The position numbers were made by a program, and so were the translations under genes. A stretch of DNA of 41,996 bases from Acidimicrobiales bacterium (GTDB lineage Bacteria > Actinomycetota > Acidimicrobiia > Acidimicrobiales > AC-9), in the NCBI GenBank assembly GCA_036270875.1, contig DATBBR010000061.1, positions 1 through 41,996 on the forward strand, in the 5' to 3' direction. The notes beneath the pieces were generated by a model. That model saw only the letters and a list, made by a program, of their open reading frames with translations, was not told where the DNA came from and searched no databases. The first letter of the stretch is position 1. Every line of letters starts with the position of its first letter. Below are positions 26,538-37,588 of this stretch, piece by piece.

Positions 26538-26708
26538 GTAACAAAACCTAAACGCCCGAGCGCATGAGAGCCGCAGGTGTGGGTATGGATGCTGTCGAAC
26601 CATCAGAGCCATATGGGTGTACGGTTGGCCACACGGACGGCGCCTACGGGTGATGGACCTGCCCGGCCAGCCTGGCGACCTGGCTCCTCGCATTCGGAAG
26701 AACATTCC

Positions 26709-27389
26709 TTGCCTCTCGCTGCGAACACCATTCACCTCCCTGCACCTCGAGCCTTCCTTCGGCACGCGTTGCCGAGCTTGGTGGAGAGCACCGTCGGTCC
26801 GGTGGTGCTGTTCTACGTGATGCTCTCGCTCCTCGGCCTGCGTGGCGCCCTGCTCGCCACGGTGGGCTTCTCTTATGTGGCGGTGGCTCGCCGCGTGGTG
26901 ACGGGCCGGCCAGTACCGGGGATGCTGGTGCTGGCCTGTGCGCTGCTCACCGTGCGCACGGCGCTGGCCATGGCCACCGGCAGCGCCTTCGTCTACTTCC
27001 TCCAGCCGACCCTGGGGACGTTCCTCGTCGCCGGCGCCTTCCTCGTCTCGGTCCCGGCGGGACGCCCGCTGGCTGAGCGCCTGGCCCAGGACTTCTGTCC
27101 GCTCGACCCCGCATTGCTGCGCCAGCCCTTCGTCCGCAAGTTCTTCCTGCGGGTGTCGCTCCTGTGGACGTTCGTCTTCCTCAGCAACGCCAGCCTCACG
27201 CTCTGGCTGCTGCTCACGTACTCGGTGAAGTCATTCGTCCTGCTGAAGACGGCAGCCTCCCTCTTCGCCATCGGGTCGGCCATCGTGGTGTCGGCCATGT
27301 GGTTCCGGCGGGCGCTGCACGGCGAGGGGTTCAGCCTCCACTGGTCGTCGCGGGCCAAGCCGGCGACGGTGACCCAGCAGCCCTCCTGA
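26709..27389 (+). CDS. Small multi-pass membrane protein (VC0807-like)
   Basis: About 226 residues with five or six predicted membrane helices (for example VGPVVLFYVMLSLLGLRGALL and WTFVFLSNASLTLWLLLTY). The segment between helices, with an Arg-rich stretch and a FLQPTLGTFLVAGAFL helix, resembles the family of inner-membrane proteins related to intracellular septation protein A; the function is unknown. The start is uncertain: TTG 26709 has GGAAG upstream, whereas ATG 26613 would add a hydrophilic, non-conserved tail. It faces the DUF2505-like gene head-to-head across about 170 bp, where no further gene is seen, only weak -10-like words. Confidence 0.65.
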   Translation: MPLAANTIHLPAPRAFLRHALPSLVESTVGPVVLFYVMLSLLGLRGALLATVGFSYVAVARRVVTGRPVPGMLVLACALLTVRTALAMATGSAFVYFLQPTLGTFLVAGAFLVSVPAGRPLAERLAQDFCPLDPALLRQPFVRKFFLRVSLLWTFVFLSNASLTLWLLLTYSVKSFVLLKTAASLFAIGSAIVVSAMWFRRALHGEGFSLHWSSRAKPATVTQQPS

Positions 27390-27442: not shown

Positions 27443-28063
27443 GTGCATCGGGACGACTCCCCCCCGTGGTCCGTGCTGGCCGCGGCCTTCCTCGCCGGGT
27501 CGATCCCGTTCTCGAATCTGGCCGCCCGACGGCTCCGGGGCGTCGACCTGCGCACGACGGGTTCGGGCACTGTCTCGGGCACCTCGCTCTACCGCGTGGC
27601 CGGCTTCGGCCCGCTCGCCGTGGTCGGTTGCCTCGAGCTGGCCAAGGGCGCCCTCGGGCCGATCCTGGCCGGGCGACGCCGGCCCGAGTTGGGCGCCGGG
27701 GCTGCCGGGCTCGGCGTGGTGGGCCACAACTGGTCGCCCTTCCTGGCCGGCGCCGGCGGACGGGGCATCTCCCCGGCGCTGGGCGGCCTCCTGGTGCTGG
27801 CGCCCGAGGGCACGGCCGTGCTGGCGGTCGGGCTGGCGGGCGGTAGGCTCAGCGGCCACACGGCGCTGGGAAGTTTCCTGGCGATGCTGGGGCTGGCCCC
27901 GGCGTTGGCCGCGACTCGGGGTCGGAGGGGAGCCTGGACTGGTGCAGCGATAGTCGTCCCACTCCTGGCCAAGCGCCTCCTCGGCAACGGGCCGCCGGAG
28001 GGCCGTTCGCGACTGGATACGTACCTCTGTCGCCTGGTTCTTGACCGGGACGTACTGAGGTGA
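27443..28063 (+). CDS. Diverged PlsY-like acyltransferase, membrane protein
   Basis: Polytopic membrane protein of about 206 residues, the usual PlsY size. It has the PlsY framework: an opening AGSIPFSNLAARRLRGVDLR, a first loop TGSGTVSGTS where canonical PlsY has GSGN(x)GATN, LAKGA, and a second loop GHNWSPFLAGAGGRGISPALG where PlsY has GHxxPxFxxFxGGKGVAT. PlsY moves acyl groups from acyl-phosphate to glycerol-3-phosphate. The changed Asn residues and the loss of Lys in the GGKG loop make activity uncertain. GTG 27443 is chosen just before the first helix. The gene is followed by a DegV protein, which fits lipid metabolism. Confidence 0.7.
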   Translation: MHRDDSPPWSVLAAAFLAGSIPFSNLAARRLRGVDLRTTGSGTVSGTSLYRVAGFGPLAVVGCLELAKGALGPILAGRRRPELGAGAAGLGVVGHNWSPFLAGAGGRGISPALGGLLVLAPEGTAVLAVGLAGGRLSGHTALGSFLAMLGLAPALAATRGRRGAWTGAAIVVPLLAKRLLGNGPPEGRSRLDTYLCRLVLDRDVLR

Positions 28064-28123: not shown

Positions 28124-28945
28124 ATGGCCGTAGCCGTCATCACCGACAGTGCCGCTTCCCTTGACAAGGGCCTGACCGAGCGGCTCGACATCACCGTGGT
28201 GCCGATGCGGTTGACCATCGGGGGCACGACGTACTCGGACGATCAGGTCACTCTCGAGGAGGTCGTGCGCCGGATCGACGAGGGTGTCCACACCGCCGGA
28301 CCGGCCCCGGGAGCATTCGGCGAGGCCATCGAGGCGCGCCAGTCAGGGGACGGCGTGGTGGTGCTCACAGTCTCCGAGCGCATGAGCAGCACCCACAAGG
28401 CCGCCCTGCTCGCGGCCGAGTCCTTGGACGGGCAGGTGCAGGTCGTCGACACCTCCACGGCCGCCGGGGCCGAGGGCCTGGTCGTGCTGGCGGCGGCGGA
28501 GGCCGCCCAGAACGGCGCCCCCCTCGACGAGGTGGTGGCCAGAGCCCGCCTCGTGAGCAGCCGGGTCCGCCTCGTCGCCGCCGTGGACACGCTCAAGTAC
28601 CTGGTTCGCAGCGGTCGCCTCCCCGACATCGCAGGGAGAGCCGGCACCTATCTCGGCCTGCGCCCCCTCTTCGAGTTCCACCAGGGCGGCATCCGCCCCC
28701 TGCGCCCCTCGCTCAGCCGCGACGCCGCTCTCGAGCAGCTCTTGAGCCACTGGCGGCGATCCAAGGTCCGAGGTGCGCCGCTGCACGTCGCCGCCCTCCA
28801 TGCCGCCGACCCCGAGTCCGCCCAGCGCATGATCGACGTGGTGCGCTCCGAGGTGGAGCCGGCGACGGCCTTCGTCGCTTCCTTCGGGCCCGTGATGATC
28901 GTCCACACCGGCCCGCTCACCGGATTGGCGTGGTGGTGGGGATAG
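28124..28945 (+). CDS. DegV family fatty-acid-binding protein
   Basis: 273 residues with both DegV lobes: AVAVITDSAASLDKGLTERLDITVVPM, the fatty-acid head-group contact region (LTVSERMSSTHKAALLAAE) and SGRLPDIAGRAGTYLGLRPLFEF. In Firmicutes such FakB proteins present fatty acids to the kinase FakA, giving the acyl-phosphate substrate of PlsX/PlsY. A plsY-like gene directly upstream on the same strand (60 bp) supports a link. No fakA is in the window. The C-terminal half is complete. Convergent with the next hydrolase, 25 bp away. Confidence 0.9.
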   Translation: MAVAVITDSAASLDKGLTERLDITVVPMRLTIGGTTYSDDQVTLEEVVRRIDEGVHTAGPAPGAFGEAIEARQSGDGVVVLTVSERMSSTHKAALLAAESLDGQVQVVDTSTAAGAEGLVVLAAAEAAQNGAPLDEVVARARLVSSRVRLVAAVDTLKYLVRSGRLPDIAGRAGTYLGLRPLFEFHQGGIRPLRPSLSRDAALEQLLSHWRRSKVRGAPLHVAALHAADPESAQRMIDVVRSEVEPATAFVASFGPVMIVHTGPLTGLAWWWG

Positions 28946-28970: not shown

Positions 28971-29888
28971 CTAGCCGTTGGCGGCGGGAACCTCGCCGCT
29001 CGGGACGTCCATCACCCAGTCGATCGCCTCGACCACGGCCCCGCGCGCCGCGTCGTCGATCCCGTGCCCCATGCGGGCGACGACATCGAGGCGGCGCGGC
29101 TCTGCGGCCCCGTCGAACAACAGTCGCGCCTCGGCCGCCCGGATCAGACGATCGCGGCGGCCGTGGACCAGCGCCACCGGCACGCCCATATGACTGATGG
29201 CCGACAGCGGAGGGTCGGGAAGCACCCATCCGGTGTTGATGCGCACGCCGAGGCGGTGGAGCATGACCCAGCGCCCGAGCTTGGTCCTCGTCAGGGCGAC
29301 GATGGCGAGCCCCACGAGGCTGGGCGACATCCGCCAGCGAGCCGGCGCGCTGACTGCGACGATCCCGGCGATCGGGGTCCCGCCCCCGCCTACCGGCGGC
29401 GACGCCGGCGACACCGGTGAGGCTGCCAGCGAGGCCGCCGGCGCTGGCCGGGCCTCATCGGCCATCGAGGCCACGTGGCAGAAGACGGCGATGGCGCCCA
29501 TGGAGACGCCCACGAGCACCACCGGCTGGCCCCCCTCGGCGGCCAGGGCCGCGGCCGCAGCCACGTCCAGGCGCTCCTCGCCGCCCACGGTGCAGTTGCC
29601 CTCTGACGCGCCGTGGCCGCGCGCGTCGTAGGTCAGCACGTCGAAGCCGGCCCCATGGAGATCGGATGCGAGCGCCCGAATCCCGCCGTCCTCCTTGGAC
29701 GCGCCGAAACCGTGCACCAGGACCACCGCTGCCCGCGCCCGCTCCGGGCGTCGCCACCAGCGGGCACTCAGGTGCAAGCCGTCGGCCGTCAGGAGCACAG
29801 CATCCTCGACCGAGCCGTCCAAGCGGATCGGCTCCAGCTCCGGCCTGATCAGCACGAGGCTACGCAGCGACGCTACCCGCTCGGACAC
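28971..29888 (-). CDS. Alpha/beta hydrolase
   Basis: Predicted serine hydrolase of about 305 residues with no signal peptide. VVLVHGFGASKED carries the oxyanion region, GVSMG the nucleophile Ser, ALVHGRRDRLI the likely acid and ARMGHGIDD the catalytic His. A low-complexity Pro/Ser/Gly insert lies after the nucleophile helix. GTG 29888 is chosen; TACTCT ends 6 nt ahead with no good ribosome-binding site, so leaderless expression is possible. A TTG at 29954 that overlaps the MFS stop would add 22 non-conserved residues. The substrate is unknown. Confidence 0.82.
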   Translation of the reverse strand: MSERVASLRSLVLIRPELEPIRLDGSVEDAVLLTADGLHLSARWWRRPERARAAVVLVHGFGASKEDGGIRALASDLHGAGFDVLTYDARGHGASEGNCTVGGEERLDVAAAAALAAEGGQPVVLVGVSMGAIAVFCHVASMADEARPAPAASLAASPVSPASPPVGGGGTPIAGIVAVSAPARWRMSPSLVGLAIVALTRTKLGRWVMLHRLGVRINTGWVLPDPPLSAISHMGVPVALVHGRRDRLIRAAEARLLFDGAAEPRRLDVVARMGHGIDDAARGAVVEAIDWVMDVPSGEVPAANG

Positions 29889-29950
29889 GGCGCAAGAGTA
29901 TCCCTGACGACAACGCACCGTTCGGCAGACCGAGGAGTTCTCTCCGTTGC

Positions 29951-31339
29951 TCAACCGCCGGGCGGCCGACGTGGCAACACGAACGGGCCCGGTTCGGAAC
30001 GACCGTCGTCGGAGAGCGCTCGGGTGGGCCCGGGACCAGCGAGCGGATAATCCGGCAGGGACACGACAACGCCGGCGACGTCATCCCTAGGACCGATGGC
30101 GACGGGCTGCCGTCGCAACTTGAGCCAGGTGACAATGGCCGAGGCGACAACGAACAGGCCCGAGCACATCAGCACCACCCGGGCGGGAGGCAGCATGCCG
30201 AGGACGGGCCACCGCACCCCCTCGAGCTGATCGGCGGCCAACCCGGCACCGAGGGCAGCGAGGGTGAGACCCACTCGTATGACCACGTGGAAGGCGGCGA
30301 AGGCGAGGACCCGCTCCTCGCCGTCGAGGCGCTCCTGGAGCAGGCTCATTGCGCCGGCCAGGCAGGCCGCCGTGAACGCGCCGAAGGCCGTAGCGCCGAG
30401 ATAGGTGAGCGGAACGCCCGGGGACAGGCTCATCCCGGCGATGACGACTCCCTGACCGGCGACGCACCAGAGCACCCCCGTCATGCCGTGGAAACGCAGT
30501 CGGCCAAGCACCACCAGGCCGATGGCCGCACCCACGCCGAACAGGGCGACGAGCACACCGAACTGGATGTCGGTCGCGTGCAGCACGCCCCGCACGAAGA
30601 CGATCCCGAGAGAGAAGAGGGCCCCGATGCCCAAGGAGACGGACAGGGCGGCCGGCGCCACCGCCCGCACGAGGGGGATGCGAAAGGCCGAGAGGAACCC
30701 GCTCGGGTGCTCGCCCTGGTGCGGTGGAACGGCACGGGCCGGTGCCGCGGCGAGTCCCCGGATCCGGCTCAGCATGGCGAACGAGACCACGTAGGTAGCT
30801 GCGTCCACCCAGAACGTCGGCGCCACCCCTCGGGGCGAGGACGTGCTCACGCTGCCGGCCGCCAGCAACGACACGAGGGCAAACGCGGCTGCACCGAGCG
30901 GGATCGTCCCGTAGGACGACCCGAGGATCAGGCCATTGGCCTTGGGCAGGTCCTCGTCCGCGACGAGGTCCGGGATCGACGCATCCCGCGCCGGCAGGAA
31001 CACCAGGCTGGCCGCCTCCACCACGAAGGCCCAGAGGTAGATCCACCACAGAGCGTGGACGAAGGGCACCAGTGCGATCGCACCCGCCCGCAGCGCGTCC
31101 ATGGCGAGCATGGTGTTGCGGCGGTTCCACCGGCGCACGATCCGAGCGGCGAGCGGGCCTGCGATCGCCGCCGGCGCCAGGCGCAGGACGAGGATGCCGG
31201 CGACGGCGGCCGAGTCGCCCGTGAGCGCGAGGGCCAAGGCCATGAAGGCGATCGTGGCCATCCAGTCGCCCAGGGACGACACGCCCTGGCCAATGAGGAG
31301 CGTGCGAAAGCCGCCGCGCTTCAGCAGCCCCCCTCTCAT
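29951..31339 (-). CDS. MFS transporter, 12 transmembrane helices
   Basis: Major facilitator protein of 462 residues, of the drug/siderophore exporter-like group. The opening RGGFRTLLIGQGVSSLGDWMATIAFMALALALTG is typical for this group. The loop between helices 2 and 3 carries RRWNRRNTMLAMD, and DASIPDLVADEDLPKANGLI is the central conserved segment. A hydrophilic tail of about 50 residues ends the protein. ATG 31339 is chosen over GTG 31384. It may be transcribed with the downstream hydrolase. Substrate unknown. Confidence 0.85.
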   Translation of the reverse strand: MRGGLLKRGGFRTLLIGQGVSSLGDWMATIAFMALALALTGDSAAVAGILVLRLAPAAIAGPLAARIVRRWNRRNTMLAMDALRAGAIALVPFVHALWWIYLWAFVVEAASLVFLPARDASIPDLVADEDLPKANGLILGSSYGTIPLGAAAFALVSLLAAGSVSTSSPRGVAPTFWVDAATYVVSFAMLSRIRGLAAAPARAVPPHQGEHPSGFLSAFRIPLVRAVAPAALSVSLGIGALFSLGIVFVRGVLHATDIQFGVLVALFGVGAAIGLVVLGRLRFHGMTGVLWCVAGQGVVIAGMSLSPGVPLTYLGATAFGAFTAACLAGAMSLLQERLDGEERVLAFAAFHVVIRVGLTLAALGAGLAADQLEGVRWPVLGMLPPARVVLMCSGLFVVASAIVTWLKLRRQPVAIGPRDDVAGVVVSLPDYPLAGPGPTRALSDDGRSEPGPFVLPRRPPGG

Positions 31340-31425
31340 GCCGGTTGCGACCCCGGACGGGCGGCGAACCGTCCGCGCCCACACGGGGAGCGCCCCTGGA
31401 ATCCGCCACCCCTCTTCATCGGTTG

Positions 31426-31460: not shown

Positions 31461-31538
31461 AGGTGGGTGCAACAGGGCACGCCTGCGGGCCGGGTCGGCC
31501 GGGTCGGTACGCTTGGGCCCTCAGACGGGGAGCTTTCG

Positions 31539-33275
31539 ATGCGACGTGAGGCGCCAGCACAACCTGGTCGTTCTTCTTCACGCTTCCTGTCCCGTTGGCG
31601 GCTTATCGCCCTATGCTCGGGCGCCGGCGCCCTAGAGGCCGCCCTGCTGACCCAGCTCGGCGTGCAGTCGGGCATGGGTCTCGCCCCCCAGGTGAACGCC
31701 CCGGTGCCGTTCGGAGCCTTCCACGACCTTCGGTGGCTGATCGTCTACCACAACTCCTGGCCCGGCTTTCTCGCCGAAGCGGCCGCCGTCCTGTTCGCCC
31801 GGGGCTTGCTCACCGCCCTCACCGTTCGTGAAGCGTGGCCCGACGACATCGCGCGGCCGGCGCCGCGCGTGCTGCTGACCCGGAGCATCGCCTTCACGTT
31901 CCTCGTCGCCCTGTTGTTGATGCCGTGGACGATCCTGCTGTTCGGCCTGGCCGTGGTCTCGGTGTCCTGGCTGTTCTTCGCCGCCGTGCCGACGGTGCTG
32001 CTGCTCGCCTTTCTCGTTCATCACGGGGCCATCACAAGCGGCTGGTGGAGACGGGCGCCGGCGCCGCGGGCGTTGGGCTGGATCGCCCTGACCTTCGCCG
32101 TCCTGACCGTTTCCGCGGGGCTGACGGCGGTGTCCCCGAGGGCGCTGTGGGTCCCGATCGCCGCCCTCACCGGCGTGTTCAACGCCTGGGCGTGGTTCGG
32201 CATGGTGCATGCCGTCACCGGCACGGCGCGCTCGCACCGGTTCCTCCCCCTGGCCCCAGCGGGCCTGGCCGTGCTGCTCGGGGTGGTCGTCGGGGGATCG
32301 GCCATCGGCTTCGCGACCGTCAGCCACCCCGCCAGCTCGCGCGCCGATGCTGCGGCCGCCGGCCCCGACCCGGGCAACCAGGGCGGGCCGGCGCAGGCGA
32401 CGGGCAAGCCCGTGCTGGTGGCCAGCGGATTCTGGAGCAGCTGGAACGGCAAGACCGCTCCCCCGTTCTCGGGGCACTACGACGAACAGCGCTTCTCCTA
32501 CCGGGGCCTTGACGCCGCTGGACGGCCATTGCCCTACCAGTCGGCCGATACCCAACAGCCCTTGCTCCAGCTCGAGCGGCTGATGTCCGATCAGGTCGAC
32601 GCGCTCTACCACCAGACGGGCAAGCCGGTGAGCATCGTCGCGGAGAGCGAGGGCTCGCTGGTGGCCAAGACCTATCTCACCGCCTCCCCGCACGCTCCGG
32701 TCAGCACCTTGATCATGGTCAGCCCCCTGGTGCAGCCGGCACGCGTCTACTACCCACCGTCGGGCGTCGCCGGATGGGGAGTCGTCGGAGGCCTGGGCCT
32801 CCAGGGCCTGAGCGACACGGTGGGAGCGGAGACGACCGTCGACCTTGCGCCCAGCCAACCCTTCCTCCGGTCGATCGTCCAGGACGCGCCGGCCCTGCGC
32901 TCGGTCCTGTCGTGCCCGGTGGCGGGCGTGCGCCAGTACGCCGTGCTGCCGTTGGCGGACGCCGTCGCCTCCGGCAACGCCAAGCCCCTCGGCATCCCCA
33001 CCGCCGTGGTGCCCGCGTTCCACGGCGGGCTTCTGGGTGATCCCAACGCGGACGCGATGATCCAGGACGTGCTCGGCGGCGGCTCGCCCTCCGACTCGAG
33101 CCTGTTGTCCGTGGCCGAGCGCATCATCGGGCCGGCCTCGTCGGCCTGGCAGGTCCCCGAGCTGCCCCTTTCCATCAACAGTGCGTGGTCACAACCGACG
33201 AGTCCCGACTCGGGCGGCGTTCCGAGCTGCTCCAGCATCAGGACCGAGCTCGCCAGCCAGCTGGCCGCCGGCTGA
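31539..33275 (+). CDS. Seven-helix membrane protein with extracytoplasmic alpha/beta hydrolase domain
   Basis: 578 residues. After a basic N-terminus, seven hydrophobic segments lie at about 22-42, 74-95, 114-136, 139-161, 177-198, 204-226 and 237-261. With the N-terminus inside, the remaining 310 residues are outside the membrane. That part looks like a hydrolase: GFWSSWNG could be the oxyanion loop, and VAESEGSLVAK a nucleophile elbow with S370. A later AFHGGLLGD may hold the His. The first outer loop includes FHDLRWLIVYHNSW. ATG 31539 has GGGGAG 6 nt upstream; a GTG at 31467 is the alternative. The family is not recognised and the hydrolase role is inference. A bidirectional terminator follows. 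Confidence 0.72.
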   Translation: MRREAPAQPGRSSSRFLSRWRLIALCSGAGALEAALLTQLGVQSGMGLAPQVNAPVPFGAFHDLRWLIVYHNSWPGFLAEAAAVLFARGLLTALTVREAWPDDIARPAPRVLLTRSIAFTFLVALLLMPWTILLFGLAVVSVSWLFFAAVPTVLLLAFLVHHGAITSGWWRRAPAPRALGWIALTFAVLTVSAGLTAVSPRALWVPIAALTGVFNAWAWFGMVHAVTGTARSHRFLPLAPAGLAVLLGVVVGGSAIGFATVSHPASSRADAAAAGPDPGNQGGPAQATGKPVLVASGFWSSWNGKTAPPFSGHYDEQRFSYRGLDAAGRPLPYQSADTQQPLLQLERLMSDQVDALYHQTGKPVSIVAESEGSLVAKTYLTASPHAPVSTLIMVSPLVQPARVYYPPSGVAGWGVVGGLGLQGLSDTVGAETTVDLAPSQPFLRSIVQDAPALRSVLSCPVAGVRQYAVLPLADAVASGNAKPLGIPTAVVPAFHGGLLGDPNADAMIQDVLGGGSPSDSSLLSVAERIIGPASSAWQVPELPLSINSAWSQPTSPDSGGVPSCSSIRTELASQLAAG

Positions 33276-33849: not shown

Positions 33850-35091
33850 TCAGGAGTCGAGCGACACGGGAAGTCGGTCGAGGCCCCGGAGCACGATCCT
33901 CCCGTTCCACGCCTCAGGCTCGTCCTCGAGCGCCGCCGACGGGAAGCGCCGGGCCAGCGTGTGCAACGCCACCTGCCCCTCGAGCCGGGCCAGGGCCGCG
34001 CCCAGGCAGTGGTGGATCCCGCTGCCGAACGACAGGTGCTGGGCCGCGCCCGTCCGGGCCAGCGAGAGGCGGTCGGCGTCCGCACCCCAGCGACCCGGAT
34101 CGTGGTTGGCCGAGCCCAGGCACGTGAGCACGAAGCTTCCCGCCTCGATGAGCCGGTCGCCGATCTTGAGGTCCGAGAGGGTGATGCGCCGGGAGAACTG
34201 CACCGGGCTGTCGTAGCGAAGCAGCTCCTCGACGGCGTTGACGGCGAGGTCGGCGTCCGCACCCAGCTGCTCGAAGGCACCCCGGTCGCGCAGCAGGGCG
34301 AGCGTGCCGTTCCCGATCAGGTTGACAGTGGTCTCGTGCCCGGCAATGTAGAGCAGCACGACCTGGTCGAGGAGCTCGCCCTCCGACAGCCGGTCGCCCT
34401 CCTCCTCGGCCTCGACGAGGGCAGACAGGAGATCGTCGGCCGGGTGGGCGCGCTTCCACGCCACGACGTCGGTCACGTAGGCACGGATCAGATCGGAGGC
34501 CCGCATCGCCTCCTCGATCTGCTCGGCGGTCAGGATGGGGTCGAGCGTCCCGGCCAGCGTGTGCGACGCCTCCCGGAGCTGATCGCGCTCGCCCTCGGGC
34601 ATCCCCAGGAGCTCGCAGATCACGGTGAACGGCAGCGGAAACGCCAGATCGGCGACCACGTCCATCCTGGCTGCCGGGGCCACACGATCGAGCGCCTCGT
34701 CGACGAGCTGCTGAACCCGTGGCCGCAGGGCCTCGACCCGTTTGGGGGTGAACGCCTTGGAGACCAGCCGGCGCAGCCGCGTGTGATCGGGAGGATCGAG
34801 GCTCAGGATGGACCGCGGCCGGCGAACGACGCGCTCGCCGGCCACCTCCTCGAATACCTGGGCCCGGAGCGTCGGCGCCGCGTTCTCGGGCTCGACGCTC
34901 AACGACGGGTCGCGCAGCAGACCGACGATGTCGTCGTAGCGGAAGAGCATCCACAGATCGAGGGGGCTGTGGTGCACCGGGTCATGCTCCCGGAGCGCCC
35001 GGTACCGCGAGTACGGGTCCGCGAAGAACCCACGCTCGAACGGATCGAACGCCGGCGCCTCGATCGGAGCACCTGTGCTGCTGTCATCCAC
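33850..35091 (-). CDS. Cytochrome P450 (soluble bacterial type)
   Basis: Monooxygenase of 413 residues. I-helix oxygen-activation motif IAGHETT, the ExxR motif EELLRYD, and the haem-binding FGSGIHHCLGAALARLEG with C362 as thiolate ligand. No membrane anchor, so ferredoxin and reductase partners are needed; none is in the window. GTG 35091 (start of VDDSSTGAPIEAP) has GGAG 6 nt upstream and gives normal length, whereas the frame opens 35 codons earlier across the divergent MBL gene. The substrate is unknown. Divergent from the MBL-fold gene with only 49 bp between starts. Confidence 0.93.
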   Translation of the reverse strand: MDDSSTGAPIEAPAFDPFERGFFADPYSRYRALREHDPVHHSPLDLWMLFRYDDIVGLLRDPSLSVEPENAAPTLRAQVFEEVAGERVVRRPRSILSLDPPDHTRLRRLVSKAFTPKRVEALRPRVQQLVDEALDRVAPAARMDVVADLAFPLPFTVICELLGMPEGERDQLREASHTLAGTLDPILTAEQIEEAMRASDLIRAYVTDVVAWKRAHPADDLLSALVEAEEEGDRLSEGELLDQVVLLYIAGHETTVNLIGNGTLALLRDRGAFEQLGADADLAVNAVEELLRYDSPVQFSRRITLSDLKIGDRLIEAGSFVLTCLGSANHDPGRWGADADRLSLARTGAAQHLSFGSGIHHCLGAALARLEGQVALHTLARRFPSAALEDEPEAWNGRIVLRGLDRLPVSLDS

Positions 35092-35140
35092 GGCAAGCTC
35101 CCTCACCACACCCGCTCGGCATGGCATCAAGCTAGGCGCC

Positions 35141-35932
35141 ATGCTGGCGACCATGCTGATCGGAGACGTCGAGGTCCTGCCGGTGCACGACGGCACCGCC
35201 TACTTCCCCCCCGGCGAGGCCTTCGCCGGCACGACAGCGGACCAGTGGGCGCCCCACCGGGAGCTCCTCACCGACGACGGCCTGCTTCCCCTGGAGCTGG
35301 GCGGGTTCCTGGTTCGGCACCGGGGCCGGGTCGCCGTGGTCGATGCCGGGGTCGGCTCGATCAAGGGACCCTTTGCCGGCGGAGCATTCCTCCAAAGCCT
35401 GGCCGCCCACGGGGTCACGCCGAGCGAAGTGACCGACGTCGTCTTCACCCACCTGCACTTCGACCACGTCGGCTGGGCCACGAGAAAGGGCGAGGTGGTG
35501 TTCCCCAACGCCACGTACCGCTGCGACCGACGGGACTGGACCCATTTCGTGGGACCGGACCCCGGGGCAACCAAGAAGCTGTCGCCGGTCGAGAGCAGGC
35601 TCGAGACGTGGGACGCGAGCGGGCCCCTGCTTCCCGGCATCGATGTCCTGGCCGCTCCTGGGCACACGCCCGGCAGCACGGTGGTCGTGCTCTCCTCGGG
35701 CGCCGATCGAGCGCTCGTGCTGGGAGACGTGGCCCACTGCCCGGTGCAGCTGGTGGACGACGAGTGGGCGATCCTCGGCGACGTCGATCCCGCGCTCGCC
35801 CGGCGGACCCGGACAGCGCTGGCCCGGGAGATCGAGGACACGGGCGTTCCGGTGGCAGGCGTGCACTTTCCCGACATGAGCTTCGGGCGCCTGCTTTCGG
35901 GCCGGGGCGGACGCCGTTGGGTGGTGCCGTAG
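35141..35932 (+). CDS. Metallo-beta-lactamase fold hydrolase
   Basis: 263 residues with the binuclear metal site THLHFDHVG (H104, H106, D108, H109), a second site in APGHTPGST and a final His in AGVHFPDMSF. The opening VEVLPVHDGTAYFPP and long helical segment before the metal site are typical of the lactonase-like group that includes AHL lactonases. Substrate prediction goes no further. ATG 35141 is chosen; ATG 35153 is also possible. It shares a short divergent promoter region with the P450 gene and is convergent with the FAD oxidoreductase. Confidence 0.88.
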   Translation: MLATMLIGDVEVLPVHDGTAYFPPGEAFAGTTADQWAPHRELLTDDGLLPLELGGFLVRHRGRVAVVDAGVGSIKGPFAGGAFLQSLAAHGVTPSEVTDVVFTHLHFDHVGWATRKGEVVFPNATYRCDRRDWTHFVGPDPGATKKLSPVESRLETWDASGPLLPGIDVLAAPGHTPGSTVVVLSSGADRALVLGDVAHCPVQLVDDEWAILGDVDPALARRTRTALAREIEDTGVPVAGVHFPDMSFGRLLSGRGGRRWVVP

Positions 35933-35968
35933 GAGCGTCGGCGCCGTGAGCCCCGGTGAGAGTGGTGT

Positions 35969-37588
35969 CTAGCCGGGGTTGACAGGCGTCCTGCGTCGCC
36001 GAGCCAGGTCGGCGATCACGACCATGGCTGCATTGCGGCCGTTGGCCGCGATCACGCTGCCGCCCGGGTGCGTGGCCGCGCCGCACAGGTACAGGCCGGG
36101 AACCGGTGTGCGCGGCGTGAGCCGTCGGTCCCACATCTGGTCCGGGAGACATTCTCCCTGGAAGATGTGACCGCCGGTCAGTCCCGTCCGGGCCTCGATG
36201 TCCGGAGGACCCAGCACCTGGCGGTGCTCGACGACATCGAACACGTCCGGGGCGAAGCGGGCGATGCTGGCCAGGACGAGATCGCCGACCTCCTCGCGCC
36301 GGGTGGTCCAGTCACCCTCGGCCAGTCGGTAGGGGGCGTACTGGGCGAAGACGCTCATGGTGTGCTTGCCCCGCGGCGCGATGGTCGGGTCATACGCAGT
36401 CTGGAAGTACAGCTCGCACCATGCCGGCGTCGGTACGCCGCGACGGCTCGCGGCGCAGGCCGCCTGCGTGTCGTCGACGCCGGAGCTGATCGTCACCATG
36501 GAGCGAAAGGGCGTGTCGTCGGTGGCAGCCACGAAACGGGGCAACCGGGCCAGGCCGCAGTTCACCTTCACCACCGGGCTGTCGATCCGCCACTCCTCGA
36601 GGCGCCGGCGGTAGTGCCCGGGAACATCGCCCGAGCACAGGGCCAAGGTCCGCTTTGGATCGGCGTTCGACACCACGGCGTCGGCGCGGATGGTCTCGCC
36701 CCCTTCGAGCACGACGCCCACACCGGGTACGACGGCGGCCACAGGGACCCCGGTCGCCACGACCGCTCCGGCCGCCCGGGCTGCGTCTGCCAGTGCGAAC
36801 GACACCCGACCCATCCCGCCGCGCACGTAACCCCAAGCCCCGCCCTTGCCGCCCAGCATCCCGGACGCGTGCATGGCGTGGACGGCTGCCGTCCCGGCGT
36901 CACGGGGACCGGCGTAGGTGCCGATGATCCCCTGACCATGGAGGGCGGTCCGCAGCCGCGAGTCCTTCACGTGCCGCTCGAGGACGTCGGCGATCGAGGC
37001 ACCGAGCACCACGTCGACAGCCTCTCCATCATCTCCGAGGCGCGCCACCAGCTCCTCTTGTGTTGGCGCGTCGCCCAACCACGTGTCGCCGATCGGATCG
37101 GGGCCCCGCAGCGCCCGCCGCAGGCGTCCGAAGAGGTCCTCGTAGGCGAGGTACCCGTCGACGTCGGGGGGCGAGACGGCGGCCACCTCGGCCGCCGAGC
37201 GGACGGGGTCGTCCCAGAGCGTCAGGGCCGACCCGTCCTCCAGGGGACACCAGAGGTGCGGGTCGACGACCTCATAGCCGTAGCCGTACCGGGCCAGCTC
37301 CAGCTCCTCCACCACCAGCGGATGCAGCAGCCCGACGAGGTACGCGCACGGGCTGACGTGCCAGTCGGGGTCGTCGAAGGGCTGCTCCAGGGTGCAGGCC
37401 CCGCCCAGACGCTCCCGCCCTTCGACCACGAGCACCCGCCGACCAGCACGGGCGATGTAGGCGGCGGCGGCCAGGCCGTTGTGGCCGCCCCCGACGATCA
37501 CCGCGTCCCACGGGAGCCGAGCCAGCTCCTGGACGGGGGCGGGCAGCCCGACCCGTCCCATCGACTCCTGCGCGCTCGGCTGGGCCAC
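35969..37588 (-). CDS. CrtI-like FAD-dependent oxidoreductase (phytoene desaturase/PYROXD2 family)
   Basis: 539 residues. The FAD-binding Rossmann motif is DAVIVGGGHNGLAAAAYIARAGRRVLVVEGRERLGGAC (starting near residue 28; read with its GxGxxG and terminal Glu). The C-terminal FAD contact is LYLCGAATHPGGSVIAANGRNAA. WGYVRGGMGRVSFAL and the ADAVVSNADPKRTL segments match the carotene-desaturase-like family. Members oxidise carotenoids or other unsaturated lipids, but no phytoene synthase is near, so a carotenoid role is only possible. GTG 37588 is the start. Divergent from the DHA2 exporter with 157 bp between. Confidence 0.9.
   Translation of the reverse strand: MAQPSAQESMGRVGLPAPVQELARLPWDAVIVGGGHNGLAAAAYIARAGRRVLVVEGRERLGGACTLEQPFDDPDWHVSPCAYLVGLLHPLVVEELELARYGYGYEVVDPHLWCPLEDGSALTLWDDPVRSAAEVAAVSPPDVDGYLAYEDLFGRLRRALRGPDPIGDTWLGDAPTQEELVARLGDDGEAVDVVLGASIADVLERHVKDSRLRTALHGQGIIGTYAGPRDAGTAAVHAMHASGMLGGKGGAWGYVRGGMGRVSFALADAARAAGAVVATGVPVAAVVPGVGVVLEGGETIRADAVVSNADPKRTLALCSGDVPGHYRRRLEEWRIDSPVVKVNCGLARLPRFVAATDDTPFRSMVTISSGVDDTQAACAASRRGVPTPAWCELYFQTAYDPTIAPRGKHTMSVFAQYAPYRLAEGDWTTRREEVGDLVLASIARFAPDVFDVVEHRQVLGPPDIEARTGLTGGHIFQGECLPDQMWDRRLTPRTPVPGLYLCGAATHPGGSVIAANGRNAAMVVIADLARRRRTPVNPG

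Follow-up and report, generated by a model that had tools for sequence, protein, structure and literature searches.

The window analysed here is a stretch of 41,996 nucleotides, contig C61 of a 2.99 Mb Acidimicrobiales genome in 155 contigs. It contains a gene, present in a single copy in that genome, for a protein with seven predicted membrane helices followed by a predicted alpha/beta hydrolase domain (Table 1). Genes for a DUF3159 membrane protein, a divergent PlsY and a DegV protein precede it on the forward strand, then come two genes on the reverse strand, one for an alpha/beta hydrolase and one for an MFS transporter, and finally the seven-helix gene, again on the forward strand. A preliminary description of the region had already placed the gene divergent from an MFS gene. 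The reading frame starts with an ATG at 31539, ends with a stop codon at 33275, and is open further upstream to a GTG at 31467. Homologues with 40–88% identity align along the whole length of the 578-residue protein. Judged by this alignment, the reading frame is a genuine gene.

Table 1. Genes and protein features in the window, with the evidence for each.
Feature	Position	Strand	Evidence
VC0807-family / DUF3159 membrane protein, linked neighbour	26577..27389	+	NCBIfam NF041646, 86.9 bits (cut-off 65)
Divergent PlsY-like acyltransferase, conserved part, start approximate	27455..28063	+	PF02660, 73.4 bits (cut-off 24.1)
DegV / FakB-like fatty-acid-binding protein	28124..28945	+	PF02645, 207.7 bits; PDB FakB and DegV chains, E down to 5e-28
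Alpha/beta hydrolase, Hydrolase_4 family, neighbour	28971..29954	-	Found in 3/20 other loci
MFS transporter, divergent from the gene	29951..31384	-	PF07690, 69.6 bits; found in 3/20 other loci
Seven-helix protein with C-terminal alpha/beta hydrolase domain	31539..33275	+	578 residues; reading frame and full-length homologue alignment
Seven membrane segments, residues 22-256	31602..32306	+	Hydropathy averaged over 23 members, with loop charges; N-terminus predicted inside
Motif FHDLRWLIVYHNSW in the outer loop joining helices 1 and 2, residues 61-74	31719..31760	+	Conservation over 23 members
Alpha/beta hydrolase domain, approximately residues 288-545	32400..33173	+	Profile matches lipase structures; predicted outside
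FSYxGxxxxxxxPYxxxDT signature, residues 319-338	32493..32552	+	S320, Y321 and T338 in 37/37; common to secreted M23-fused hydrolases
Ser370 codon, predicted nucleophile	32646..32648	+	Ser in 37/37
Asp474 codon, predicted catalytic acid	32958..32960	+	Asp in 27/37
His495 codon, predicted catalytic histidine	33021..33023	+	His in 37/37

The membrane half was located by averaging hydropathy over 23 family members. Seven segments stand out, at residues 22–40, 78–96, 121–139, 142–160, 178–196, 205–223 and 238–256, in agreement with the preliminary description. An eighth, weaker segment (380–398) lies within the hydrolase domain. In the same 23 members the mean number of lysine and arginine residues is 4.5 in the N-terminus, 2.3 in loop 2-3, 2.9 in loop 4-5 and 3.7 in loop 6-7. 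It is 1.6 in loop 1-2, 0 in loop 3-4 and 0.3 in loop 5-6, the last two being only a few residues long. As a prediction, this distribution places the N-terminus inside and the C-terminal hydrolase domain outside. The predicted topology of seven helices, N-terminus in and hydrolase domain out, is well supported.

The first outer loop follows the pattern PFGxFHDLRWLxVYHxSW. Five of its residues (D63, L64, R65, W66 and V69) are found in 23/23 members, so the earlier impression of a constrained motif holds. The helical half, searched as a profile against the PDB, matches no solved structure convincingly (best E 0.39). Its matches to ATP synthase subunit c, from E 0.39 upward, are treated as an effect of composition, as is a match below cut-off to the Pfam family DUF6737 on the membrane helices (residues 129–160).

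The C-terminal half gives a clearer picture. A profile was built from 35 sequences, including 10 relatives fused to an M23 domain and two diverged copies. Against the PDB it finds 93 sequences at E≤1, with secreted lipases on top (best E 9.2e-6); Group XV phospholipase A2 (LPLA2), LCAT and variants of B. subtilis LipA rank lower. A separate search of the two halves had been proposed in the preliminary description. Among 20 members compared with Pfam at E≤1, Hydrolase_4 is matched by 17 (best 1.4e-6) and Abhydrolase_1 by 6. Similarity to the alpha/beta hydrolase superfamily is reached through the family profile, and the window protein alone passes no cut-off in either Pfam or NCBIfam. Lipase_2 (PF01674) is matched below cut-off by 3/20 members at E≤1 (best 0.0013) and is absent from the matches of the window protein. 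On these profile similarities, the assignment of the C-terminal domain to the alpha/beta hydrolases is well supported.

The predicted active site can be read from an alignment of 37 proteins, made up of 25 family members (including two fragments), two diverged seven-helix copies and 10 M23-fused relatives; it excludes the protein L047 and the fragment L054. S370, G372, H495, S320, Y321 and T338 are invariant. The elbow around S370 reads A-E-S-E-G rather than G-x-S-x-G, as in the ESEGS elbow recognised earlier. The E-S-E form occurs in nearly all seven-helix members, with E369 in 22/25 and E371 in 24/25. Nucleophile, acid and histidine stand in the canonical alpha/beta hydrolase order. Besides the 27 proteins with Asp474, eight have Asp at 473, which brings the total to 35/37. 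Thus, Ser370-Asp474-His495 is a plausible catalytic triad. The two proteins with Asp at neither position (L037 and L052) are both seven-helix copies of one complete 7-Mb genome, G516. In these copies another position may supply the acid, or the activity may be altered.

Structure prediction had been suggested as a check on the triad. Two models, of the full protein and of the hydrolase domain, were each computed from three sequences and are poor (pLDDT 38.5 and 46.5). Neither was built upon. As to the eight-stranded fold of the superfamily, when the poor model of the hydrolase domain is searched with Foldseek, nearly all of the 50 listed matches are alpha/beta hydrolases by name, and none reaches E≤0.001.

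Several known protein groups resemble the seven-helix protein in part. Secreted lipases (B. subtilis lipase A/EstA, PDB 1i6w, and the putative PDB 5h6b and 5h6g) are similar around the nucleophile elbow, at E 4e-4 and 9e-6. Their PDB chains have 179–271 residues and no membrane domain listed, whereas the seven-helix protein carries its helices ahead of the hydrolase domain and has the FSY...PYxxxDT signature. The actinobacterial family Abhydrolase_9 (PF10081) is similar in layout, since several of its members have membrane segments ahead of a GESLG elbow. It was rejected as the family of the seven-helix protein: no Pfam match to it occurs for the window protein, nor among the 20 members at E≤1, and profile comparison with hhalign gives a probability of 0.3%, from a comparison set that is small and noisy, having been chosen automatically by reading frame position and GxSxG motif.

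From its predicted features, the protein is best described as an alpha/beta hydrolase carried on an anchor of seven helices; no named family was found for it. The preliminary description had reported an open reading frame for seven helices and an outward-facing lipase-like domain that fits no family it could name. These observations are confirmed: the helices appear in the average of 23 members, the profile of the C-terminal domain matches lipases, the loop charges predict that domain outside, no Pfam or NCBIfam model reaches its cut-off, and a plausible Ser-Asp-His triad includes S370.

One alternative for the chemistry is that the domain is an acyltransferase and not a hydrolase. In this case the triad, on the outer face, would shift an acyl chain between lipids, as in LCAT, or transfer it to a glycan or protein. 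The PDB profile matches include LCAT and Group XV phospholipase A2 (E 0.0014–0.006), and the glutamates that flank the elbow are not found in the secreted relatives, which hints at a different chemistry. The strongest profile matches are nevertheless hydrolytic lipases, and no acceptor site is recognisable. We regard an acyltransferase as distinctly unlikely.

The closest relatives outside the family suggest a second alternative. Secreted-looking proteins from other Actinomycetota families (L040–L046 and L048–L050) carry the FSY...PYxxxDT signature, and the Ser, Asp and His are present in 10/10 of those aligned. These fusions (L040–L050) share signature and triad with the seven-helix protein. 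They differ from it in having an N-terminal M23 domain instead of seven helices, Peptidase_M23 being found in 5/5 proteins checked against Pfam, and an elbow of H-S-Q, H-S-M or H-S-H instead of E-S-E. M23 peptidases act on peptidoglycan. The substrate may then be an ester of the cell wall or another part of the envelope rather than a membrane lipid, with the lipid genes adjacent through inherited order only. The M23 domain of this nearest group with the same hydrolase signature speaks for such a substrate, as do the 15/20 loci that lack linkage to PlsY and DegV (see below). The profile matches, however, are lipases, and the linkage persists across several gene orders, unlike a plainly inherited order. 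An envelope ester as substrate seems improbable.

Searches at three levels describe how widely the family is spread. Among 59 relatives, nine genomes contain homologues, the window's own included; seven matches are strong (E≤1e-100) and two weak (G013, G014). Of the 296 genomes in the class sample, 20 match, 18 strongly and two weakly (G013, G095). A profile search of the phylum sample, which scored three candidates per genome and may therefore undercount, finds a match in at least 17 of 396 genomes. Four of these 17 are near full-length (G000, G378, G383, G516), one is a diverged copy (G366), eleven cover mainly the hydrolase part, and one (G346) is taken as chance. Two named homologues belong to metagenome-assembled genomes that carry the titles Actinobacteria and Acidimicrobiales. 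Among viral contigs, seven pattern matches gave no confirmed case, and no relative of the gene was found. Across these samples the family is actinobacterial and patchily distributed; its distribution across Actinobacteria had been named earlier as a check. In genome G249 the copy is in two pieces (L029, L032) with a TGA inside; either the gene is broken or the sequence contains an error. Genome G002 has a second copy (L012, contig C95), 46% identical, which adjoins a glycoside hydrolase family 15 gene.

The strongest functional clue is the linkage to PlsY and DegV genes, which the preliminary description had not reported. Twenty other loci with homologues were searched with the neighbour genes of the window. 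In five of them (G023, G050, G091, G146 and G320), PlsY, DegV and DUF3159 occur together beside the gene. The window neighbour assigned to the VC0807 family scores 31.4 bits against DUF3159, slightly below the cut-off of 34.2. The alpha/beta hydrolase neighbour is present in three of the five linked loci, and the MFS neighbour in three of the 20 loci (G001, G091 and G146). Another contig (C159) of G002, which is not among the 20 loci although another G002 copy was, holds the gene together with PlsY and DegV.

The order of the genes varies. PlsY-DegV-gene is found in G050, and also in the window and G023 with genes on the opposite strand in between. The order is gene-PlsY-DegV in G091 and G146, and DegV-gene-PlsY in G320. 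This linkage of the gene to PlsY, DegV and DUF3159 genes, in varying orders and across the five GTDB families to which the window and the five linked loci belong, is a new observation. In the remaining 15/20 loci the search found no PlsY and no DegV next to the gene, some of these loci being cut by contig ends (notably L055, L065 and L068). In the family f69 the gene lies near an acyl-CoA dehydrogenase gene in 7 loci and near a MaoC gene in 6.

In the gene tree, the linked copies fall into two groups on an unresolved backbone; one of those marked as linked (L002, in G001) shows only its MFS neighbour, the contig starting just before the gene. In G001, PlsY and DegV are together on a different contig from the seven-helix gene. 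A single origin of the linkage, with later losses, is possible.

The co-occurrence of the gene with divergent PlsY was also counted. Divergent PlsY is present in 14/59 relatives: 7/7 with a strong copy of the gene, against 7/52 others (E 1.1e-43 or better). In the class sample, at E≤1e-20, it is found in 17/18 strong positives (all except G234), against 22/278 others, with a Fisher P of 5e-16 that ignores shared ancestry. All 8 families with the gene have divergent PlsY in at least one genome, while 19 families have that PlsY. It thus seems that the gene relies on the PlsY module more than the module relies on the gene. The lipid setting proposed for the protein in the preliminary description is supported by the PlsY, DegV and DUF3159 neighbourhood and by this co-occurrence. 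The interpretation given there is partly supported as a whole, with an envelope lipid or glycolipid as substrate, and helices that hold or move it, as its conjectural part.

The divergent PlsY itself is altered. Residue roles for the acyl phosphate and glycerol 3-phosphate (G3P) sites are taken from an extract of PMC5700162, according to which the side chains of T41 and H92 bind acyl phosphate in Aquifex PlsY. T41, H92 and N180 are present in 14/14 divergent sequences and R45 in 10/14. N37 is replaced by Thr and K104 by Arg in 14/14, and H177 is absent in 14/14; the genome's other PlsY (L075) likewise lacks H177. A complete loss of the G3P site was considered and softened, R45 and N180 being retained to this extent. 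Divergent PlsY may be an acyl-phosphate acyltransferase with an acceptor other than the usual one, and this acceptor is directly testable. In this PlsY paralogue (27455–28063 in the window), an invariant GTVSGT replaces GNxGAxN, and HNWS...GGRG motifs are present.

A possible framework for these genes is the FakAB-PlsY pathway. FakB takes a fatty acid out of the bilayer for phosphorylation by FakA, and PlsY can use the resulting acyl phosphate; in other Gram-positive bacteria, extracellular lipases can supply fatty acids to this route (both from an extract of PMC10146087). The gene set is present in the genome of the window, as genes only: the FakB-like DegV and PlsY-like genes are linked, and one FakA-like gene lies elsewhere, as does a second PlsY. 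The difference from the known pathway is that here a divergent PlsY and a putative dedicated membrane lipase are linked to it.

An outer-face lipase beside FakB-like and PlsY-like genes fits this flow of fatty acids. We therefore tentatively favour, at close to an even chance, a polytopic membrane lipase that faces outward and releases acyl chains, which then enter reacylation of the FakB/FakA/PlsY type. The seven helices would anchor the protein in the cytoplasmic membrane. The Ser370-Asp474-His495 domain, on the outer face, would act on lipids in the outer leaflet or the surroundings and cut off their ester-linked acyl chains. The released fatty acid would get to the inner leaflet, where the FakB-like DegV protein would take it up. 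FakA would phosphorylate it, and the adjacent divergent PlsY would use the acyl phosphate to acylate a lipid precursor.

The sequence supports the hydrolase family, the triad residues, the predicted topology and the gene linkage in this proposal. We infer that the substrate is a lipid, which way the flow runs and whatever the helices do besides anchoring. The unlinked 15/20 loci, the different neighbours in f69 and the 2/37 proteins without Asp at 473 or 474 count against the proposal, as do the two poor models and a co-occurrence count uncorrected for ancestry. The link of the gene to acyl-phosphate lipid synthesis carries moderate confidence. If the proposal is true, it gives an unnamed membrane enzyme family its first functional setting, tied to acyl-phosphate phospholipid synthesis, and suggests a way for soil Actinomycetota, which are little studied, to recycle or scavenge acyl chains. 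The literature searched, mostly without subscription papers, yielded no description of such an architecture or gene group.

The MFS neighbour allows another arrangement of the same genes. In NCBIfam it matches best to TIGR00900, a general antiporter model (3.5e-27), and second to an LplT-Aas-type acyl-ACP phospholipid acyltransferase fusion model (9.4e-10), both below cut-off. No LplT-specific model is above cut-off, and no PDB chain matches at E≤0.01. LplT, a lysolipid flippase of the MFS type, works coupled with the acyltransferase Aas (extract of PMC11416262), and the MFS neighbour could carry lysolipids as LplT does, although its match to that kind of model is weak. The seven-helix protein would then be an outer-leaflet phospholipase A, the MFS protein would return the lysolipid inward, and divergent PlsY would reacylate it with acyl phosphate, as a counterpart of LplT-Aas.

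The resemblance to LplT-Aas lies in how the parts would work: both groups combine an MFS transporter and an acyltransferase in one lipid setting. The LplT-Aas donor is acyl-ACP, whereas here it would be acyl phosphate, and a membrane-integral lipase would belong to the group. Within about 1.5 kb of 14 divergent PlsY loci, DegV is matched in 13 and MFS in 6, and an MFS gene lies near the seven-helix gene in the window and 3/20 other loci. This association and the second NCBIfam match favour phospholipid remodelling. The better antiporter match counts against it, as does the occurrence of divergent PlsY and MFS genes without the seven-helix gene. On balance such remodelling appears unlikely.

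A broader reading joins elements of the favoured lipase and of remodelling in one acyl-recycling module of Actinomycetota. Here the seven-helix outer-face lipase, a FakB-like carrier and the altered PlsY would together remodel membrane lipids, with PlsY using acyl phosphate on an acceptor other than G3P and with the helices delivering the substrate to the active site, thereby forming a functional counterpart of LplT-Aas from unrelated parts. Taken as a whole, this reading is speculative and unlikely.

Other genes adjoin the family at individual loci. Downstream of the gene in the window (33850–37588), translations judged by eye indicate a cytochrome P450, a metallo-beta-lactamase-fold protein and a phytoene-dehydrogenase-like FAD enzyme, and the homologue in G001 is also trailed by genes of the same three clusters. 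In G091, a gene of the encapsulin family (L060, 9947–11221; Linocin_M18, checked in this locus only) adjoins the homologue, and G146 has a gene of the same cluster (L062, 7161–7967).
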